Source of the DNA: Owenia fusiformis | Lineage: Eukaryota; Annelida; Polychaeta; Sabellida; Oweniidae | Direction of reading: 5' to 3' | Length of the DNA: 64,000 nt | Assembly: GCA_903813345.2 (NCBI GenBank) | Contig: CAIIXF020000010.1 | Location: 24,035,740-24,099,739, forward strand | In this document: positions 1-58,258 of the stretch, one piece after another | Layout of the letters: each line of letters begins with the position of its first letter | How positions within the stretch are numbered: position 1 is the first letter of the stretch | The notes under the pieces: model-generated | The model's database searches: none | The model's input: the letters and a program-made list of their open reading frames with translations, nothing else | Told to the model about the DNA's origin: nothing | Program-made: the position numbers and the translations under genes

Positions 1-599
1 ATAATCTTGATTTACATCATTAAAAATTCATACAAAATGATGTCATATTTGGAATCCACATGTAAAATTACATCTAGAAATATGGTTTTGAAAATTTAAT
101 TTTCCTTGAAAATATGACTTCTAGGTCGGGGAGATTCCTCATAGACCCCATGTTGTAAAATCACAAAAAGTTAAGTATTTATTCTTGTGTTAGGCAGATA
201 ATATTTTCTTTTACTGGACATATATTATTAAAATTTGTATAACTATCAGATACATAGACCTGAACGAGCCACCTAGTGGTGAAACTGGTAACTACCTACT
301 CGCATGTGCGTTATTGCTCAAGATATTAGCGTACCAAACTCAACCTGAATATCGAATAGTGGGAGATTTGAATTTTAACTTTAAAGCGACAACAAGGACT
401 GTGAAGAGAAAAATGGATAAATTTTACCTTTTCTGAGCTATCAGAGCTAAGTTTGGTCTAACATCTTCTTCCTTATTCCTATTTTATCAAAATGTATGCA
501 TATGGCAATATTCATCAACCAGTAGAACTGACAAATCGTTTAAAATCTTTAATTCTATACAAGGAGTCCCACTTATGGGATTTTTCAAATTCTTTCCAG

Positions 600-675
600 G
601 TCGATGTGGAAACACCTCGCAGATGAAATTGAAACTAATTTTCTGGCTGCTCGAGTCGATAAAAACTCTGATAGT
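600..675 (+). CDS. Candidate internal exon, unrecognised protein
   Basis: A 76-nt stretch lies between a pyrimidine-rich acceptor (ATTCTTTCCAG) and a consensus donor (GTGAGT at 676). After one leading base the frame reads 25 residues, starting SMWKHLADEIETNF and ending KNSDS. It ends in phase 0, which fits the exon candidate at 795. The residue mix (charged, few runs of I/F/Y/N) looks more coding than the AT-rich background. I recognise no family. No partner exon upstream was found with the required phase (two bases left over). Single short exons of this kind can arise by chance. Confidence 0.33.
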
Positions 676-794
676 GTGAGTCTTTTTATGAAAACGTTTC
701 TAATAGAAATCATTTGACGATTATTAGAAAGCATTAAAGTCAAATCCAAATCGGAATCTGACATAAAAGTGCAAAAATATTGCACGGACTTTAG

Positions 795-883
795 AGAACA
801 TACTTCCTGTTTAATAAAAATGGCGAAGATAAAGAAGACAAAGAATTAGAGGATATTCTTTTGCCATCATCAATCGATATAAA
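795..883 (+). CDS. Candidate exon following 600-675
   Basis: Acceptor ACGGACTTTAG is followed by a phase-0 frame of 29 codons, beginning RTYFLFNKNGEDKEDK and ending SSIDI, then donor GTATGT at 884. The phase agrees with the previous candidate exon across a 119-bp intron. A possible last exon is 959-977: acceptor TTTTACGATAG, completing a Lys codon, then PRIIG and a stop. The acidic/basic run GEDKEDKELED looks like a solvent-exposed linker. Function unknown; could be the C-terminus of a host gene or an old transposon gene. Confidence 0.33.
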
Positions 884-1037
884 GTATGTGTACAAATTGT
901 AGTTAATATATACATGTTTAAATGCTATAACACATTCAAAGCTTTCATTTTACGATAGGCCCAGGATCATTGGATAAGACTCGGCGCTGCTTGGTGCTGC
1001 TTTAACTAACAGTTCAATCAATACTGCACGTTCGATA

Positions 1038-1085
1038 CAATTGAAAACACATGAACTTCAGCAATTGAAAACACATGAACTTCAG
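1038..1085. repeat. Perfect 24-bp tandem duplication
   Basis: The unit starting CAATTGAAAACACATG occurs twice head to tail with no mismatch (1038-1061 and 1062-1085). Nothing else is seen around it; the following kilobase holds no recognisable gene or repeat. Confidence 0.9.
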
Positions 1086-2935
1086 TAGATTTAGATGTTA
1101 TAAATAATATACAATTTTACATAATTCTCCTCAATGTCTACAGAAATAACACCTTACAAATTTTGTTTGGTAGGATCATCTTTTCCAAAGTGAATTCCAC
1201 TAGATTTTGGCCTATCACTACATTTAGGGTAGATGCATCATGCTTCAAAGCTTGACCAATATTCCCAGCACAACCAAGAAGATGCAAATACCAAGAATCT
1301 AACTGGACAAATAGATCAAACCAATGTCAATATGGCATACACAGGGTTTACTTCAACTCTCAATTGAATGATTGATCTCCATCTAGGCAGGGCTTGAATG
1401 ACAGATCTAAAATTAGGTGCTGGATCAATTCATTGATTGACATATGGACTTAGTCAGTTGCATAACTCTTGCAATGAGGGAGGTATTATCCATCAACTGG
1501 TCAATAAAATCAGGGCTTCTGGGTTACTTATTACAAGATTACAAGGCTCCTGTTTGAATCTGAGAGGGATCAGTATCATCTGACTTGTGCCCCTCAAACT
1601 CTCTAAAAGACAGGAACATATCCAAAATAGACTCCTTAAAATCACCATTTTAAGTGTTCTGATATGAGATATTTATGTGCTTCTAAATATAGAGGAATCA
1701 TTTTGACATGTAATGATGTTAAATATTTATTGTGTTATACAATTAAAAAATAGAAATGTAAAGCAACAGATTAGAACTTTAATGGTGAAATATCAAACAG
1801 AAATATATTTCTAGGAAAAATTCAATCCCAAAAGTCAACTTCAGAGACCCACCATGTCTATCAGAATTACTTTTGTGGTGATAACCGATGGTATCTTCCT
1901 CCAATCTTTACGCAAATAACGTCACACATTCATCAATTAAAGAATAGAAAAGAATCCCATTTTATAGATTATTATAAAGGAATGCAAGGTATATTGACAG
2001 GCTGACACAATACACAAAAAACTAAGAGAAAAGGAATGTGTCAATTTATGACTGGGTAGAGATTTCAGAACAAATTATCAATAGTACAAGAAAACCTTCA
2101 TTATGATCTTATGAGAAGGAGACATACCTAATCACACTTGTCAGTATAATAGTAGCATCCAATAAAACTGAATATATGAAAATCATATCTTATAGAAACT
2201 CAATAAACCCTTACAGAGAATGAATGAAATCATATAGACAAAAACAAATAAAGATTACAATCGATTTTTCTAGGATAGCTTTACTTTTCCTGAGGGTGTT
2301 GTAATATGACCTTGAAAGCTGTTCTTCCACTGTCTTCATAATCATTGATTTATATACATAATTGCTTTTGGTTTCAGCAGAAATTTGTGCCAATGATACG
2401 GACTTCATCATAATCTCCTAACGGTAATCTGTAAAGGTGAAGGATTATAAGTTCTAGTGTGGTGGAGTGGTGGAAGGGAAATGAAAAAAACAATTAATGA
2501 CAATATACATCATGGAGAAGGCAGTGAGAATTATATATAACAGGGTGAGATATGAGCAAATACAGTAGAGAACTGAATAAATATGTTTTAGTATGGGTGA
2601 ACTCTTCAAACCACACAAGATAAACTGCAAGATCGCTTCTCCATTATAGCCATACCTATTCTAAATCAAGCCAATTTACTTATGAATGTGGTATCTCAAC
2701 TGCAGAAAGAGGTCTTTCAAAGAAACCTAAGTTGAAGCTAAGGAACATCCAAAAAGTGATCCCAAGTCAATTGAAAACAAACTACATGTAACTGTATAAC
2801 ATTCTTATATCAAACACACTAGTAAGTTGAATAACATATACTTCCAACTAGACAACAGCAATGCCAAAGCGTAGCAAATCCCATCGAACAGCCATGGCTG
2901 GCATTTTTAAAAACAAAGTATACAGCAAAAAAGGC

Positions 2936-3209
2936 AGCCATTTTTCAAAATGGCCAACTTCTACCAAAAGTGTCATTAGACAGTGTGCCATGCTTATAGT
3001 ATTCACATACCAAATATGAACAAAATCGCTCCACTACTTTTCGAGTTACAGCAAAAATCGTAAAATAACGAGTAAAGGCTGAGTAAAATACATTTAAATG
3101 GTGGCAATTTTTCAAAATGGCCACCTTCTACCAAAAGTGTCATTAGACAGTGTGACATGCTTATAGTATTCACATACCAAATATGAACAAAATCGCTCTA
3201 CTACTTGCT
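2936..3209. repeat. About 105-bp direct duplication, 167-bp offset
   Basis: Two copies (about 2936-3042 and 3103-3209) share TTTTTCAAAATGGCCA, then a CTACCAAAAGTGTCATT block and a CACATACCAAATATGAAC block. The motif caaaatggcc also occurs in the pearl-like cores at 21.8-25.5 kb and 39-40 kb, so this may be a distant relative or a fragment of such an element. From 3211 to 5340 I see no further supported feature. Confidence 0.75.
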
Positions 3210-5359
3210 AACATAACATATTGCTATTACAGTTTTACATATTCCACCTAAATTACTGTTAAATCGGCACTAAAATGGTCATCATTTTTAAATGAGCGGC
3301 CATGTATCAAATACATTAATTGTAGTAAACATTCTTGTTATAATAAATACACTAGCTGTACCAAACATATTCGTTGCATCACACACACTAATTGTACCAA
3401 ATATACTAGTTCTACTAAATAGAATGGTTGTATCATGTACTCTGTGTAAGTGCACATATTAAGATTATGGTTACAGTTATGGTTATGATAATTTCCGCCA
3501 AAGTGCGTCACTTGGACAGTTCATTTTTGAGTCCTTCAGGTCCTCTCAATTGTCGGGACAGGTCCTTGAAAGCACTGATTATGTACATAAAGATTTTTAG
3601 AGACAGCTTAATTTTCTCAATTCTCAAGGGATTTATATCAAAAGCAAAGTCTAATTATCATATCTTTAAGAGTCTTAGAACCCAAATGGGATTTTACTTA
3701 TGCATAGAGTCTTTGACAGCTTTTATATGCTATACATTGGCTAATTTAGTTGTCAGAATTTTTATTTCAGTTTTATTATGCATTACCCTTCACATTTGTT
3801 TGATTTGCTTCTTTAAAAATAGCTTCGTCTTCACTCTTTCAGTTTAAGAAAAACATCTGAACTCTGGACTGTCTTTTCTAGTTCTTAAGGAGAGGGGGTA
3901 AAAGCTTAATTGGAGGTCTTTATCAATATTTGGTTTGTGATAAGCATAAGTTCTTTCTCATCCAAAATAGGCAGTAGAAACCATACTGAATCAAAAATAT
4001 AAGACAGCGCAACATATTAACATTATCAAATAGAAAATCATGTTGCAATAGATAAAATACACATTTTGTTGTAGAATATTTCATGACCTCTTGCTGTGTG
4101 GCAATCTGAGGCATCTCAAGATTGAGAAGATGATGTGTTTTATCATTATGCAACAGATTCATACTGAACAGCAATTTGTTGGCTTCATTGAAACACACTT
4201 AGAAAAAGTTCCCACAAAGGACAGTGTCCTCCTATTTTATTTTAGTATATTCTATTGACATTATGTCACGTAAATCCAATAATTACAGCTCAAAGATATT
4301 ATCGCATCATGGATCATAGTGAGCACTTGTTTTAATATACACATAATATGCCTGGAGATACATAATCCCTGTAAATTAATGTAGATTGACGTGTAATTTA
4401 TAATGTAAATTCATATTAGGCAAGGTCTGGTTCCATTCACAAATTAGTTAAAACAGGAAGCTCACTGTGACTTGACCCATAAGCTATGATGGCTTTGTCG
4501 AGCTATATGTGAAGCTTAGGGAACTAAACACCTTTGCATCTTCTTTTTCATCAAGCTATTTTATATAAAAAGTATTTGACTACTTCTACCTTACTTAGTC
4601 TTAAGAAAATTCTGATACTTGCTAACCTCAAATCCTGAACTCAATTATATTAGGGAACCATGTTCAACAAAGTCTCCCAAAGCAGTATTCTCTATTAACA
4701 TTGAAGTCAATGAAGTTAATAGGCATCACAATACTCTTTTGAGCCATAGGTCAAACAATGAACTTTTCTAGCGAGCACGATATCATAACCAAAAAGCACT
4801 ATAACTCCAAAATTATCTTGAAAGCACTAACAAATCCAAATAAAGAATTAAGAAAACTAAACATTCAGATCTAAGTGCTTATAAGACATAACTATGTATT
4901 GAAGATTGCAAGCAATTTTACAGAAGACCTCTAAAGATGTCAGTGTTGAGAGCCTGCTCTCGAGGTCAAGAAAACATGACTGTGTTCTCACACTATACAG
5001 CCTTTGCTATAAGAAAATAACAAGTGGTGCGATATAATGTGCGCAAGGTATGGATATTTACTGTCATTTTTGAATTTGAATTTTCATATTTCATAAACAA
5101 AGGTATTCAGTTATATTCACCCATTTGTAGAGGACACCTTATAAAAGGGAAAGTCTATTGTTTCCTTCATTCTTTTACGACGCACTAAACATTCATCTTT
5201 TCTCTACAGCAAAAAATTTGAAATTGCAACTTTAATACATCGTTTACAGCCTTCATTCAGTATTGGTGATCGAGATAACCAATCGATATAAACCATTTTT
5301 ACATTTTGAAAGTCATGGACTTTGTGAATTTAAAAAAAAAAGAAAACTGTTATCGGATA

Positions 5360-5434
5360 TGTGCTACCTCTTAACAAGCGGATTAGATATCGTCACTTTA
5401 CGGATATCCGCACCGCTTGTTTAGAGGTAGCACA
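5360..5434. repeat. Hairpin with 22-bp arms
   Basis: Arms 5360-5381 and 5413-5434 (TGTGCTACCTCT...) are inverted copies with one mismatch, separated by 31 nt that itself contains two GATATC-type motifs. It could be a tiny foldback MITE. No target duplication is evident. Confidence 0.8.
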
Positions 5435-6384
5435 CTTTCAAAATGCAAGTACAATTTGTATTGATAGGTCATCTTGATCATCAATATAGAATGAATGCTG
5501 TTTACGCTATGTTACAGCTACAATTTCAAATTATATGCTTTGGAGAGAATATTATTGCTTGATGTGTCGCTATAAAATCAAGTACACAACTATTTACAAA
5601 ATTCCCTTTTTATTAGAGATCCTGTACACATGTCTTAATATAATTGAGAAACCTAACATGCCTTTGTTTGTGAAATATCACGAATTGAAATTGAAAAATG
5701 GCCATCAATATTTCCACCGCACGCACATGATATCCTAACCTCTTGTTTTCGTATAGCACAGTCTGTATAGGGTGGTTCTAGGCATTTAAAAATTGACATT
5801 TAACATTAAGCATTCGCAAATATAAGCTTAGTGTGCATTCGTTATATACCAAATTGGACCCGTCAGCTGAAATAATGATTACCCAATTAGCATTTGAATA
5901 GATTTTATTGCCCACTACTGAGAAGTCCGCTAGCCACCAACTATCGAGTGAGGGTCGACTTTTGACTCAACTATCGAGCTTGTCTGTTTACCCAATCTTT
6001 CAAATGAGGGTTATCATTCATAACATCAATAGGCTATCCTGGACCCTGTTGCTTTAATAGCTTTATTGCATGATAACTATCTCAAACTAACACCAAATGA
6101 CAACATGTTCGCTAGAAACTTCATAAAACAGGTTATATAATATCACTTCACCGCTAGTTGCGATATTTTCTAGCGAATACACACTTAGGCAGAATCATTT
6201 GTGACCTAGTGTGCTTGACCTTGAAATTAATCTTTTACCTTTCTTCACATTTTCACTTTATTTTGAGGCTAACCTGACCAATTTTAGAATTTAAAGAATC
6301 GATTTGAATTTTCTTTCAATTTGAAGTCCAATTGAAGGACAACTCCTAGCAATGATTAATACAATTCTTGACAATCTGTATTCC

Positions 6385-6815
6385 AAAAGATTGGTATCGA
6401 TATGGTGAACTTTTTGAACACTCGTTTCTCTTAAACCAGTCATCAAAAAATTCTAAAAATGTTATACATTGTCAATTTAATGGTCATCTTTTGAGTGGTA
6501 ACAATATATTACGATGTAATTTGAAAAAAATTTATATCCTTTTCTCTATATTTGTTTTAGAAAACACATCAGACACTTTTTTGTTCCTGGTATGATATGT
6601 TCGGAATGAATCTATCCGAACCTCATTGGAACAAAACGACATAAACACAACATGTTTAGGTCTCTCATTATTGTAATTGTACAAAGGAAAGTTTGGTTGA
6701 TTTTAAAAAAGTATCTTGTTTATGAAATAAAAAGTTTATCTTAATTTTCATCTATTTTTGTTTTTAAAATTTTTTGAATACCTTTTGTTAAATCAACCAA
6801 AATTTCCTTTGCACA
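6385..6815 (+). mobile_element. Half copy of MITE family A (5' half)
   Basis: From AAAAGATTGGTATCGATATG the sequence parallels the left half of the complete copy at 17593-18322, through the block CATAAACACAACATGTTT and the TTTGGTTGATTTTAAAAAAG segment. It stops just after the element's central inverted section (AATCAACCAAAATTTCCTTT). The right TIR half is missing, so this is a truncated copy. No coding capacity. Confidence 0.8.
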
Positions 6816-7140
6816 GTGATCAAAAAGTGACAAAATTTTGATCACCGCTACGAGCGCTGATCACGATCGCACTGTACGAAATGATGCCTCCAGATGCAGT
6901 ATATCAATGTACATCAATGGAGAAAGCTTGAGTCATTTATTTGGAGAATGTACACGGCTGTACGTATAAGTCCGCGCGATTGTGAAAGTCGTATGCTTTT
7001 AATGTACTTTCCAGTTTGCTACATTTTGTACGATTTGACATTGACATTTGATTTTTTATAGTCATATTTTCACCTTGGGAAATAAGTCAGCATGCTAAAG
7101 GTTAACCACTCAGATTAATTACCACTTATACAGTATGAAG

Positions 7141-7240
7141 AAGATCTGTCACTAGTATTCAAGTTATCTTCCGGACAGATGTGCGGACGGACTGACTGAC
7201 GGACAGGATTCACTATATCCCTACTGAACTTAGTTTGTTG
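7141..7240. repeat. Possible pearl-like 3' tail (ACGG tract)
   Basis: A stretch CTAGTATTCAAGTTATCTTC is followed by a degenerate GGACGGACTGACTGACGGAC tract. Order and wording resemble the 3' parts of the pearl-like elements elsewhere in the window. No complete core or terminal hairpin is visible, so this is a fragment at best. Confidence 0.3.
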
Positions 7241-7656
7241 GGATAATAAATGTATCTCTTCTGGAGTCTCTTCATTGAGTAGATCATCAAAATATAGCTA
7301 GTAAGTACAAGAAAAAATTGGAAGAAGAAATTTTGCTTATATTGAGCAGAGCTCTTTTCAGCATTTAAGAACAACGCACTGCTACATACGGTTAAAAAGT
7401 TGATTTATTTTCATTATGTATGTTTGTACTAAATAACTTTGACGGCAACGACAATGAGTGGTGAATTAGTCAGCCTGCATGGTCATATTTTATTGAGGAA
7501 AGTTGAATTAGAGTGGATTAAAGTAAGTCCTTCAAGGATCTATAGATCAACCCAAACTAATAAACCAACAATAAACAAGGATAAAAGGAGATTTCATTTT
7601 CCCAAAATATCTTTCCAGAGCAAAACATCACATCCTATAATTTTCTACAATAATGA

Positions 7657-53985: not shown

Positions 53986-54813
53986 CACACACTGTACTGT
54001 ACAACGTAAAAACACTTTCATCGGTATGAGTGATAAATAAAATAATAAACAAACTGATGGTCTATGTCATTTTTGTTATTTTCATCTGCATGTGTTATCG
54101 GACATTATTAGGTTATGATTAAAAACGTATAATATTAATATTCATCGTCGAAATGTGTTTTGGAATAAAAAGATTTGATGGTGCTAATTTATTTTTATAT
54201 TGGAATGTATCCGGGGGCTGGGGGGGATAGCAAGGGCCAAAATTTGACGAAGTAAGTTTTCAGTCGTATATTTTTTAAAAGAAAATGAACAATTCAGTCT
54301 CTCCGCAATCTGTTTTCAAATACGAGTTAAATAAAACAGTATCGCGGCTGTGGTCGAAATATTTGTCACCTGCGGGGAGCATGTTATTTTTCTTAAAAAA
54401 CACACAAATTATATAATCTATAACTCATATATTTGTTATACGAAAAAACAACCTTTCGATCACAAAACCAGTGAGTACAATATTGATATTTTCAGATCTG
54501 ATGCAATGATCGTACACAAATTGTGATTCAAGTCAGTTATTTTAAAAGCAGAAAAGAGATGAGAAATTGTATCAAGCATGACTTCCTTACCAATATTATT
54601 TTTTAATTGAGGATAAGGTCTCCGCCTAATCAACAATCTGACTTTGATGGCTCGAAATCTGTAAATCTGTAAATCGAGAGCCATGTAGCAGTTAAAAGAG
54701 AAAAGCCCATTAGCACGGTGTCCGATACTACCCAACGTAAATCGTTCCGGACTTGTTTTTCATAACCATTTGGACTTGATTTCGTAGGAGAATGAGATGA
54801 GACATTTATCAGA

Positions 54814-54826
54814 ATGGCTCAAAAAG
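54814..54826 (+). CDS. Transposon gene, exon 1
   Basis: ATG at 54814 in strong context (AGAATGG) reads MAQK plus one base and meets a donor (AAAAAG then GTAATA). It begins 31 bp after the left TIR. Its phase fits the acceptor at 55358 across a 531-bp intron, giving MAQKVPRNKCHEC. An alternative upstream frame (ENEMRHLSEWLKK) overlaps the same stretch in another phase. Confidence 0.45.
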
Positions 54827-55357
54827 GTAATATAATTCAATCGTTTAGAAAAATACATACACTAACTTCTACCTGAAACATTCTTTTTCATTCCCACATA
54901 TCTATTTTGGCGATCGTGCCACCATAGTTCATATTTATCGGCATTAAATAACAAAAATGCCAGAAATATGCTCTAAATCTGCATTCAGAGTGTCATTTAA
55001 CTATGTTTAAACAAAAAATCACTTTACAACGTGGAACAATATTCACTACATTAAAGATTGTGTTAATATTTTAACTATCTGTACCTTCAAATTTCCATAA
55101 ATGACCGTAATGTTAAAGTTGGAGTTAACGACGGCGAATTGTCGTTATTCTGACACGGTCTTGTCTTATAATCACTAGGTGAACGACTGCGAATTGTACA
55201 CAACGTGATACAAACAACGATTGGGAATTGTCTTGTAATGGTATTTATACGTTTCGTTGCTTGATGAATTGTCTATGCTTCTGGAAAAATTGCACTTAGT
55301 ATGATTATGTTTTAGAGGAGTTCTGGTACTAAATATTCACACATTTTGTAATTTCAG

Positions 55358-55615
55358 TTCCCAGAAACAAGTGCCACGAATGCACTTTTAAAAGTGCAGA
55401 TAAAAATATATTATTTGAACACTTCAAGAGGGACCGCCCCTCCGATTTATTCAGGCTTGACGTCCCTTTTCGTGATAAAGGCATATGGCGTTACAAAACA
55501 CAGGATTATGGATTCCGGATGTGTGATAAATTAGGCTCAAAGCTGTCATTTGATGATGGTACCTCCATAAAGGAGGAAGAATACGTTGAACCAAGTCCTC
55601 TTCAGATTTTTAACA
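55358..55615 (+). CDS. Transposon gene, exon 2 (C..C..H finger-like)
   Basis: Acceptor TTTTGTAATTTCAG opens an 85-codon frame: PRNKCHECTFKSADKNIL, then FEHFKRDRPSDLFRLDVPF and later YVEPSPLQIFN. C-x2-C followed after 12 residues by H (CHECTFKSADKNILFEH) looks like part of a zinc finger. The exon ends at a donor (AACA then GTAAAT); reading on instead reaches a stop two codons later. Composition is clearly protein-like (many D/E/K/R, balanced hydrophobics), unlike chance frames in this window. Family not recognised. Confidence 0.6.
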
Positions 55616-55762
55616 GTAAATAACGATTAAAACTAATTATTTCTTCTCAACTTTCACTTAACTTCTTGCTTAGCATTAATATAAGCATGGAAGTCAGTTT
55701 AAAGCCAATAAAGGCGTTTTAAAGTCTTATTTGAGGCAAACTTATGCTCACATTTTTCATAG

Positions 55763-55870
55763 GCAAATTAAAAATAGCGACGAGTGAAGTCCTTAAAAAA
55801 GCGAAGAGGCAAAACACAAGAAAAAGTAAAAATCAACTTTTCTCTCTACATGCATTCTTGCCCCTTGAAA
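55763..55870 (+). CDS. Transposon gene, exon 3 (basic)
   Basis: Acceptor CATTTTTCATAG completes a Ser codon with exon 2 and reads KLKIATSEVLKKAKRQNTRK, then SKNQLFSLHAFLPLE. The Lys/Arg cluster would suit DNA binding or nuclear import. Donor choices are GTATCA at 55871 or GTAAAG at 55878; each has a phase-matched acceptor (55962 or 55966). Confidence 0.5.
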
Positions 55871-55961
55871 GTATCAAGTAAAGAACATGTATCTGTAATG
55901 ATTCCCTAATTCAACCTTGACAAATATCTCTTAATACGTTTAATTAATGATGATCATTTAG

Positions 55962-56140
55962 ATAGTATCATTCAGACAACTTCTTCCACTGTCCTCATCC
56001 ACTCAGATGATGATTTGTTGGAAATCTATAAAGTTTATGGAGCTGTTCCACACTTAAAAATGGTTCATTGTGTTCTACAAGTCAGAAACGTTCCAATAAC
56101 ACAAGTCAGAAACGTTCCAATAACAAGTCAACGTCATTAA
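55962..56140 (+). CDS. Transposon gene, exon 4 (to stop)
   Basis: Following acceptor TGATCATTTAG the frame reads SIIQTTSSTVLIHSDDDLLE, IYKVYGAVPHLKMVHCVLQ, then two in-frame copies of VRNVPITQ-like sequence from a 24-bp tandem duplication (56077-56124), and stops at 56138. The intron would be only 91 bp. Further protein-like stretches follow in other frames to about 56320 (NDISTIATHLNH; YGYFHYESVYSLDTRQAG, ending at a GTGAAA donor). The true gene may therefore extend further or be frame-shifted after the duplication. Confidence 0.42.
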
Positions 56141-56970
56141 CTGGAATATTTAGGTCAAGTCCAAATGGTTAAATCTAAAAAATGATATTTCGACAATTGC
56201 TACTCATTTAAACCATTTTAAATCATGATTTTCGTTCACAATATGGCTACTTTCATTATGAATCGGTGTATTCATTGGATACAAGGCAGGCTGGTGATTA
56301 TCAGCAAAATAGGTGAAAACACTGGCAGAATCGCTCACATCCCGAAATAACAAGACTATAGCAAACGGTTCGTACAAAAAAGGCGTTTGCGGGTGCCTGA
56401 ATATAGGGTATATAGTATGGTATGTTATCTAATTGTATTATATTTACATAAAGTCAAGTGAAAGCAATTTCATAACCAAATTTACAAACCTACCTCTACT
56501 TCTTTCCATAAATCAAGTCCCAATGGTTATGAAAAACAAGTCCGGAACGATTTACGTTGGGTAGTATCGGACACCGTGATTAGAGTTGAATAATAAATAC
56601 ATATCAATGAATTATCTGTTCATAATAGTTTTAATATATTTATTCTAATAGGCTAATTGACACTTAAACATGCATTTAATTAATGCGTTGTGTTTGGGAT
56701 TCATAACATTACTAAATACAGTATCTAAAATTGATTATATGAAGTGCCCCTGTTATTTTACATTAAAGATGATCTGTTTTATTAGTCGCAACAAAACTTT
56801 TTTAAGTACATGTAGTATATCGTACATCAGTGAAGAAGCTACGGCTACCCGTTTTACGTGCAGTATGGCAATTCTTGAAATACTTGTATTTATTATTAAT
56901 TACATTATTAGTCCAAAATACACATTTCGTTCAATAAGAAACACATAAAAACGTTCAATACATTATCTAT

Positions 56971-57096
56971 CACGCCCAGCGATCGGACAAAATGAACGGA
57001 GGAGGGAGGTCAGCCCATTTTTGATAGAAAATTCAACAAATCTTCACCAACCCCACCCCCTCCGATCCGTTCATATTTTCCGATCACCAAGTGCGT
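56971..57096. mobile_element. Family B-like 126-bp hairpin MITE
   Basis: CACGCCCAGCGATCGGACAA and GGAGG at the left pair with CCTCCGATCCGTTC and CGATCACCAAGTGCG at the right. It is a short relative of the 52673 element with diverged ends. Confidence 0.65.
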
Positions 57097-57412
57097 CTAC
57101 AGGTGAATAAAAACAACATTTAGCAAAAAACCGTATTGTTATATTAAGATCTAGGAGTATTATAAGTGTTCGAACGCGGGATTTCTAAACTGCCACCAGA
57201 CTACTGACTCTATAAAATACGCTTTACTACTAATTGTTGAGCCGTTCAGTGAACCAGATTTGGAATCAATAGTTGTCATTAGTTAAGCAAAGATTAGAGC
57301 ACCAACGTATATTTTAGTCAAATTCCAATGCTTCAACGCACCATACATTATCGTAATAGTGATTTTATGACCGAGAATCCAGTCTTAAAAATGATGACAT
57401 TCTCATATTCAA

Positions 57413-58258
57413 GAAACGCTCCGATCTGATTAACACAGTGAACTGGAAACGCTCCGGTAGTCTAGATCTGTTTAGGAAATATATAGCTTGCCTTTCCTTT
57501 TCAGGAAGAGAAAGAAAAGATCTATTATACCCCTTGGCATCAAAAGAAGAGAGATTAATTCACATATAAATTTTCGTTTTTTCTATAGTTTTATGATTTA
57601 GCACACATGTAGGCATGACATCATATAATGTAGGCTTAAATCAGCTAGTTGCACACGTTTAGCACCACCAGGTTCAGATGTTTCAATTTGCCTAACAAGT
57701 ACAACACGTTTGTGAGAGAAAGATTCGATTCGGAACTCTTCTCTAATAGAATCTGAAAATGATATCAAAACAAAATGGTAAGAGCGTTTCTAAAACTGTG
57801 TTCTAAATCGACGGAGCGTTTCGAGGAAAACAAGCGATTTCTTGAGAACAAGTAATGGATTTGGACTGGGATTTTAGGAAATGAGAATATACGAGTTTGT
57901 GATCTACTACTTTAACAGAAAGATTAACGTTTCATAGAAATACTAGTTTAATTCGTAATTTGTGGTCAAATCGTCATCTTCAGATTCGTTCGATCTACAT
58001 TACGGAGCTTTGATCAAGCAAATAACAGTTTACCACCAGAAGTTGAAAAAATAAGATCTTTGCTCACGGTATTGTTCATCGAATGGTACATAATATAATA
58101 CTTCACCATAACATATGATATGTAAGAGAAACGAGAGAAACAATACTGACGGTTATAGTGGAATCTTCATAAGCCGCCATTTTATTTTGCTCCGGAGCGT
58201 TTCCGCGTAAATGAAACGCTCCGTCGTGCATGTAGGAGCGTTTGGGTTATACACCGTG
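57413..58258. mobile_element. Possible CAC-end element with ACGCTCC motif clusters
   Basis: GAAACGCTCCG occurs in both orientations near 57413, 57446, 57782, 57812, 58192, 58211 and 58236. The right edge, read inward, is CACGGTGTATAACCCAAACG, sharing CACGGTGT with the 54714 element. On the left CACAGTGAACTGGAAACG (57435) is a candidate end, but the flanks do not match, so the left boundary is unproven. Confidence 0.45.

Follow-up and report, generated by a model that had tools for sequence, protein, structure and literature searches.

The locus described here raises the question of what a short, spliced, zinc-finger-like reading frame is doing between the inverted ends of a transposon. The window, a stretch of 64,000 nucleotides from Owenia fusiformis (assembly GCA_903813345.2, contig CAIIXF020000010.1, forward-strand positions 24,035,740 to 24,099,739), contains at 54714-56578 an element of 1865 bp that ends in CAC. 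A reading made from the letters alone (the sequence-only reading) had proposed a young transposon carrying a four-exon gene of about 190 codons, either the N-terminal part of a not yet described transposase, left behind in a deletion derivative, or a cargo or accessory gene. The first of these options is now supported by an intact relative on contig C5 (locus L028), a shortened element of the same family as that relative (L029) and a further coding locus (L032). Very probably, the element in the window is a non-autonomous terminal inverted repeat (TIR) transposon that has undergone internal deletion and has kept the N-terminal finger start of a transposase of the finger-YqaJ-DDE type. The observations that carry this reading are dispersal of the element between target-site duplications (TSDs), a deletion junction, homology of the first two exons to those of related families with conservation of their splice position, the existence of an intact relative together with an analogous derivative, and nuclease- and catalytic-type motifs in the relatives' proteins.

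The ends of the element proved to be as the sequence-only reading had described them. The 5' TIR (54714-54782, plus strand) begins CACGGTGTCCGATACTACCC, and its 69 nucleotides pair at 68 of 69 positions with the 3' TIR (56510-56578, minus strand); the flanking duplication ATTAG stands at 54709-54713 and 56579-56583. In the 498-Mb assembly the 20-bp terminus CACGGTSTCCGATACTACCC occurs without mismatch at 59 places, its reversed control at none. Among 21 copies with both ends, the TSD was exactly 5 bp in 16, 6 bp in three, 4 bp in one and lacking in one. The 1.86-kb form is present in at least six copies, the window copy included, alongside many longer relatives; all copy counts for this family are lower bounds, as 40 of 305 candidates were scored. 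With TIRs, TSDs and multiple dispersed copies, the element is a mobile TIR DNA transposon, and since the 1.86-kb copies are 98.1-99.0% identical in pairwise comparison it multiplied recently, in keeping with the description of the element as young.

The beginning of the proposed gene is likewise confirmed by comparison between families. Exon 1 (54814-54826, plus strand) reads ATG GCT CAA AAA G, that is, MAQK and the first base of a valine codon, and is followed directly by the donor GTAATA. The phase-1 intron (54827-55357) ends in TTTCAG, and exon 2 (55358-55605), which is truncated, then continues the product as V-PRNKCHECTFKS, with a C2H2 finger of the form CxxCx12Hx4H, its last histidine replaced by arginine in this copy, followed by a segment ending SPLQ. 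A start of this design, ATG-N9-G and then the donor GTA, lies 99-103 nucleotides from the element end in five of the seven elements examined: the window element, L021, L023 and L026, and the distant L028, whose start would read MDNK-G-PRYKC beside the MAQK-V-PRNKC of the window. It is absent from L041, and L043 has only an unlike version, at 132. The finger itself is complete in nine of ten aligned sequences; the tenth is the window copy, in which a substitution at 55436 turned the last zinc-ligand histidine codon into one for arginine, a change seen only here among the six copies.

Exon 2 has protein relatives in a sister family (L021, L022, L023 and L026) with the TIR CACGGTGACCAAGAG; the outermost bases of L022 were not cleanly recovered. 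Protein identity is 65-70% to the sister family and 30-38% to L027, L028 and L029, with L028 at about 30%. Differences at codon positions 1, 2 and 3 amount to 21, 15 and 51% against L021 and to 23, 16 and 50% against L023; synonymous divergence (dS) between the window copy and L021-L023 is saturated and nonsynonymous divergence (dN) is 0.17-0.20. Judged by this codon pattern, exon 2 is a sequence that was under purifying selection in the lineages separating the families, and exons 1 and 2, whose splice position is kept across related families, form a genuine spliced gene start, the N-terminus of a transposase. The intron is about 25% different from that of the sister family, below the figure for third codon positions. 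More generally, the noncoding parts of the window element (54827-55357 and the 3' part) differ from those of L021, L026 and L023 by about 24-32%, against about 50% at exon 2 third positions; a cis function is therefore possible, and the noncoding parts may have been conserved for such functions.

What follows exon 2 in the window is not the rest of the gene. Two longer copies, L010 and L019, carry some 375-400 extra bases at the junction 55605-55606, and these fall between SPLQ and the sequence that directly follows it in the window. Reading on through the junction (55606-55623, plus strand) adds IFNSK and then meets a TAA stop at 55621-55623. Because the window copy is cut by this deletion junction, the readable product comes to about 92 codons (MAQKV, 82 further codons and IFNSK) rather than the 190 that had been proposed. 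The four-exon gene was accordingly abandoned beyond exon 2: the proposed exons 3 and 4, reconstructed as 55765-55828 and 55961-56140 on the plus strand, are both interrupted in the sister family by gaps that break the frame, and single-base gaps occur within the six copies (L003a for exon 3, L002 for exon 4). These segments are noncoding 3' sequence. Exon 1, exon 2 and the phase-1 intron thus stand, while the remaining splicing does not. In all, some 0.9 kb is left from the 5' end, including the parent's exon 1 and part of its exon 2, and some 1 kb from the 3' end.

Relatives were traced with exon 2 as the query and then with the long open reading frame (ORF) adjoining one of its matches. The intact relative, L028 (C5:4840270-4851071), is 10,802 bp long, with CAC ends, the TSD ATGTA and 47-bp TIRs that start CACGAGGGGAAAGAG at one end, the 3' one being CACGGGGGGAAAGAG. 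It contains the exon-1/exon-2 start and then an exon of 1467 amino acids. A multi-C2H2 gene (PF00096) at C5:4841765-4842421, on the strand opposite the main gene, is a possible second gene of intact elements. No intact relative was found with the ends of the window family itself.

The same family supplies a derivative built like the window element. L029 (1687 bp) keeps the exon start; its first 909 bases match the first 877 of the C5 element (93%) and its last 771 match the last 768 (96.5%), while the 9.2 kb between the matched ends is absent. Of this type at least 32 full-length copies and one lacking two bases were counted, in addition to broken ones, some 40 copies altogether, 40 of 314 candidates having been scored. 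Exon 1 of L029 carries an extra base. Its design is that of the window element, with the ends and the finger exon kept and the rest deleted, and here the intact same-family relative is known. Two further families, L041 and L043, also combine CAC ends, 5-bp TSDs and a retained finger exon; neither shows a YqaJ-DDE frame.

The 1467-amino-acid exon of L028 contains a YqaJ nuclease domain (PF09588) at residues 426-571 (E 9e-6), preceded by a conserved segment, FLDVVEWHS...FMKG, that lies between finger and nuclease, and followed by a core of the DDE type. At L032 a finger, YqaJ (E 1.3e-8) and the core up to a DxxH motif occupy a single frame of 1438 amino acids, and the last glutamate lies in a further frame. 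At least eight loci encode the YqaJ-DDE core, 13 of 13 candidates having been scored in one search and 32 of 124 in another. Motif counts come from eight related loci in this genome, not all of them complete, and use filled columns only; L049, gapped at DxxH, was left out of the DxxH count. The YqaJ aspartate and ExK were present in 8/8 loci each, and in the core the second aspartate (D2, in DGQ) was found in 7/7, DxxH in 5/5 and the final glutamate in 7/7. Taken together, the alignments suggest a parent that ends in CAC and makes duplications of 5 bp, or at times 6 bp, and whose main protein would consist of an N-terminal C2H2-type finger, a conserved segment, YqaJ and a C-terminal DDE-type core with DxxH.

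A candidate binding site for such a protein lies in the inner part of the TIR. The 17-mer TAACCATTTGGACTTGA (54763-54779, plus strand) has an inverted internal copy at 56155-56171 (minus strand) that matches at 17 of 17 positions and starts 423 nucleotides before the 3' end. The 17-mers of the window family and the sister family differ, and yet each family's own version recurs internally, starting 423-425 nucleotides before the 3' end, in each of the six elements compared (window, L007, L010, L021, L023 and L026) and with no more than one mismatch, so that the internal copy varies in step with the family TIR. The 5' TIR itself deviates from the motif by two positions in L021 and by four in L010. 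Shuffled window elements yielded 0.12 matches at up to four mismatches. This family-matched pattern supports sequence-specific recognition.

These findings lead to a model in which the family-specific 17-bp site, which each TIR carries and which recurs once inside the element, would be bound by the finger or by the variable segment of exon 2. A transposase acting in trans by cut-and-paste would move the window element; a protein of the L028 type would cut the DNA and re-insert the element with a 5-bp stagger, and the fused YqaJ nuclease could process DNA ends or gaps. What the window copy itself encodes, a truncated protein, would be an incidental product at most.

Several results weigh against this model and the descent that it assumes. 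The best Pfam match of exon 2, zf-H2C2_5, has E 0.014, below the cut-off, and structure prediction for exon 2 by itself yielded just strands and was uninformative (predicted local distance difference test score 54). The codon pattern of exon 2 against L026 is a more even 38, 38 and 49%, because the match spans only about 40 residues. Among the eight core loci, from searches in which 13 of 13 and 32 of 124 candidates were scored, none was found to be an autonomous copy that has the CACGGTGTCCGATAC ends of the window family, in an assembly that is possibly incomplete or masked; the TIR of L028 differs from that of the window beyond CAC, and the link between the two elements is formed by the shared exon start, ends and TSD. 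No convincing TIR pair surrounds L032, L033, L034 or L027+31 in the stretches examined; these loci may be old or domesticated. The presumed first catalytic aspartate is present in 6/8 loci, being E in L033 and N in L052, and a search of PDB sequences with the 1467-amino-acid ORF returned no match. The affinity of the core to P elements is also weak. The P-type RNase H profile PF21787 matched L034 at E 0.0022, below the cut-off, in a scan that also gave an unrelated FlgH match at E 0.0044, and hhalign of the core against P elements gave in local mode a probability of 17.7 (E 0.0014), aligning DxxH through the last E, as against 0.4 for the whole protein and 0.1 for the core in global mode. By these measures the P affinity is near noise.

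The search for a parent also yielded candidates that were set aside. Among TIR-bounded copies of the window family, the longest seen (C9:2955402-2965903, 10.5 kb) is swollen by a large nested insert with direct repeats of about 1 kb, resembling long terminal repeats, flanked by the TSD CTTTA. It contains no match to either the L028 or the L031 protein, and neither do the copies L007 and L003b, of 4.0 and 4.3 kb. On viral contigs one pattern match and no relative was found.

The strongest alternative to the reading of the finger exon as a mere remnant is that it has been selected as a small repressor, which would occupy transposase sites and so damp transposition. The precedent is KP of Drosophila: protein from internally deleted P elements can act as a repressor, by the logic of a DNA-binding domain without a catalytic core (PMC12393704, in part). 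Shortened elements of five families do retain the finger exon, and the exons of the window element, L029, L041 and L043 would presumably bind DNA, the window finger being short of one ligand. Such retention is expected in any case where an element requires its 5' end in cis, and the substitutions accumulated since the deletion give little sign of selection. Over the six window-type copies exon 2 has acquired three synonymous changes, 12 replacements and two stops, plus a 13-base gap in L005 beside which up to three changes of that copy may be alignment effects; divergence per copy is 1.29% in exon 2 against 0.63% in noncoding sequence. In 21 copies of the L029 type there are 16 synonymous changes, 25 replacements and two stops, where 9.7, 31.4 and 1.8 were expected, an excess of synonymous changes with p 0.02 in which shared mutations are counted repeatedly and are not independent. 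Against that weak excess stand the stops, gaps in exon 2 in 6/21 copies, a divergence of 0.95% as against 0.83%, the extra base in exon 1 of L029 and the zinc ligand lost in the window copy. Change in the finger exon looks close to neutral, with no convincing constraint apparent in the codons of the two derivative families tested, and we regard a selected repressor as improbable.

A second alternative is that the window element is a non-autonomous member of the Transib or RAG-like (ProtoRAG) transposons. Its CAC ends, in which CACGGTG resembles the heptamer of the recombination signal sequence, and its 5-bp TSDs are found in both of those groups and are among their recognition marks (PMC7204232, in part). 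What the relatives encode is a YqaJ-DDE protein with DxxH, and between D2 and E there is no CxxC in any of five proteins and no pair of histidines conserved across the five; for the CMCT group, a C(2)C and an H(3-4)H are described in the interval from the second D to the last E (PMC12730594, in part), and CxxC would be expected of the Transib/EnSpm group. RAG1 had no hmmscan match in the relatives' ORFs and, as PF12940, none in the genome, where the control also matched nowhere. The ends of the five families, moreover, have only CAC in common. Membership in these groups is highly unlikely. A Pfam scan of the finger exon bears out the statement that it resembles no Transib, hAT or mariner transposase, and in the relatives' proteins scanned neither a hAT family nor the hAT dimerisation domain appeared up to E 1.

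That the exon is a captured host gene or an independent accessory gene, as its sole, sub-threshold Pfam signal for a zinc finger might allow, is hardly credible, given that L028 has the same exon 1 and splice position with the exon start preceding its YqaJ-DDE exon, that a like finger is fused to YqaJ-DDE in L032, and that exon 2 shows no convincing constraint in either derivative family.

With the finger start of a YqaJ-DDE transposase as the preferred reading, the element can be set beside other known systems. A tentative likeness to P elements and THAP9, a superfamily whose DDE core is marked by C/DxxH and a P-type RNase H, consists of DxxH between D2 and E, the sub-threshold PF21787 signal in one relative and the weak local alignment through the last E; deletion derivatives that retain an N-terminal DNA-binding domain are a further parallel with P and KP (PMC12393704, in part). 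In contrast to P and THAP9, the relatives have a C2H2-type finger and not a THAP domain (none matched in the window finger exon or the relatives' proteins scanned), YqaJ stands N-terminal to the core, about 450 residues separate D2 from DxxH in L028, and the ends are CAC. P elements make TSDs of about 8 bp; the 21 two-ended copies include none of 8. ISL2EU (PHIS) is likewise a DDE transposon that carries a YqaJ nuclease (PMC4482050, PMC9179366, in part), but in that element a second ORF encodes YqaJ and the duplication is AT, whereas here a single protein contains both YqaJ and the DDE-type motifs and the duplications are 5 bp long. In scallops, YqaJ has been described as forming a large gene family that is tallied together with genes of transposon type.

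A number of further observations were made on the way. Locus L051 (G000:C331:8500-15900) carries at 327-7400 a frame of 2358 amino acids with PF21787 (E 2.4e-6), a CCHC knuckle and YqaJ (E 4e-13), which makes it a further fusion of P-like and YqaJ parts in this genome. Like the L028 family, where the P-type signal is sub-threshold, it unites YqaJ with a P-type RNase H match in a single frame; it differs in that YqaJ follows the core, with the knuckle between them. The alignment of its core, as part of a P profile, to the L028 family was only weak. Other long frames with a PF21787 match lie at C486, C3:16791275 and C10:18316698. Multi-C2H2 ORFs like that of the C5 element occur in L039 (3900-4886) and L042 (4315-4773), element ends being found at neither locus. 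Within the window element, 56077-56124 is a perfect 24-bp tandem duplication; elsewhere, L003 (C12:11700253-11706835) contains two family members separated by 44 bp, and at L014 a short remnant bearing the TIR sits just outside the element. An Rfam scan of window positions 54000-57500 gave no match.

Taken by itself, the window copy is a deletion derivative of an ordinary kind, and the interest of the finding lies in the parent to which it points. In the literature searched we found no description of a fusion of zinc finger, nuclease and catalytic core, though a Repbase entry may exist, and such a fusion raises the question of whether a transposase can carry its own end-processing nuclease. 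It is conceivable, if on balance somewhat less probable than the contrary, that the YqaJ-DDE elements reached CAC ends and 5-bp duplications independently of Transib and RAG, a proposal to which it belongs that this signature alone would therefore not be diagnostic of RAG ancestry. Because elements of the finger-YqaJ-DDE kind bear the same marks, CAC ends and 5-bp duplications taken alone can mislead searches for the precursors of RAG.

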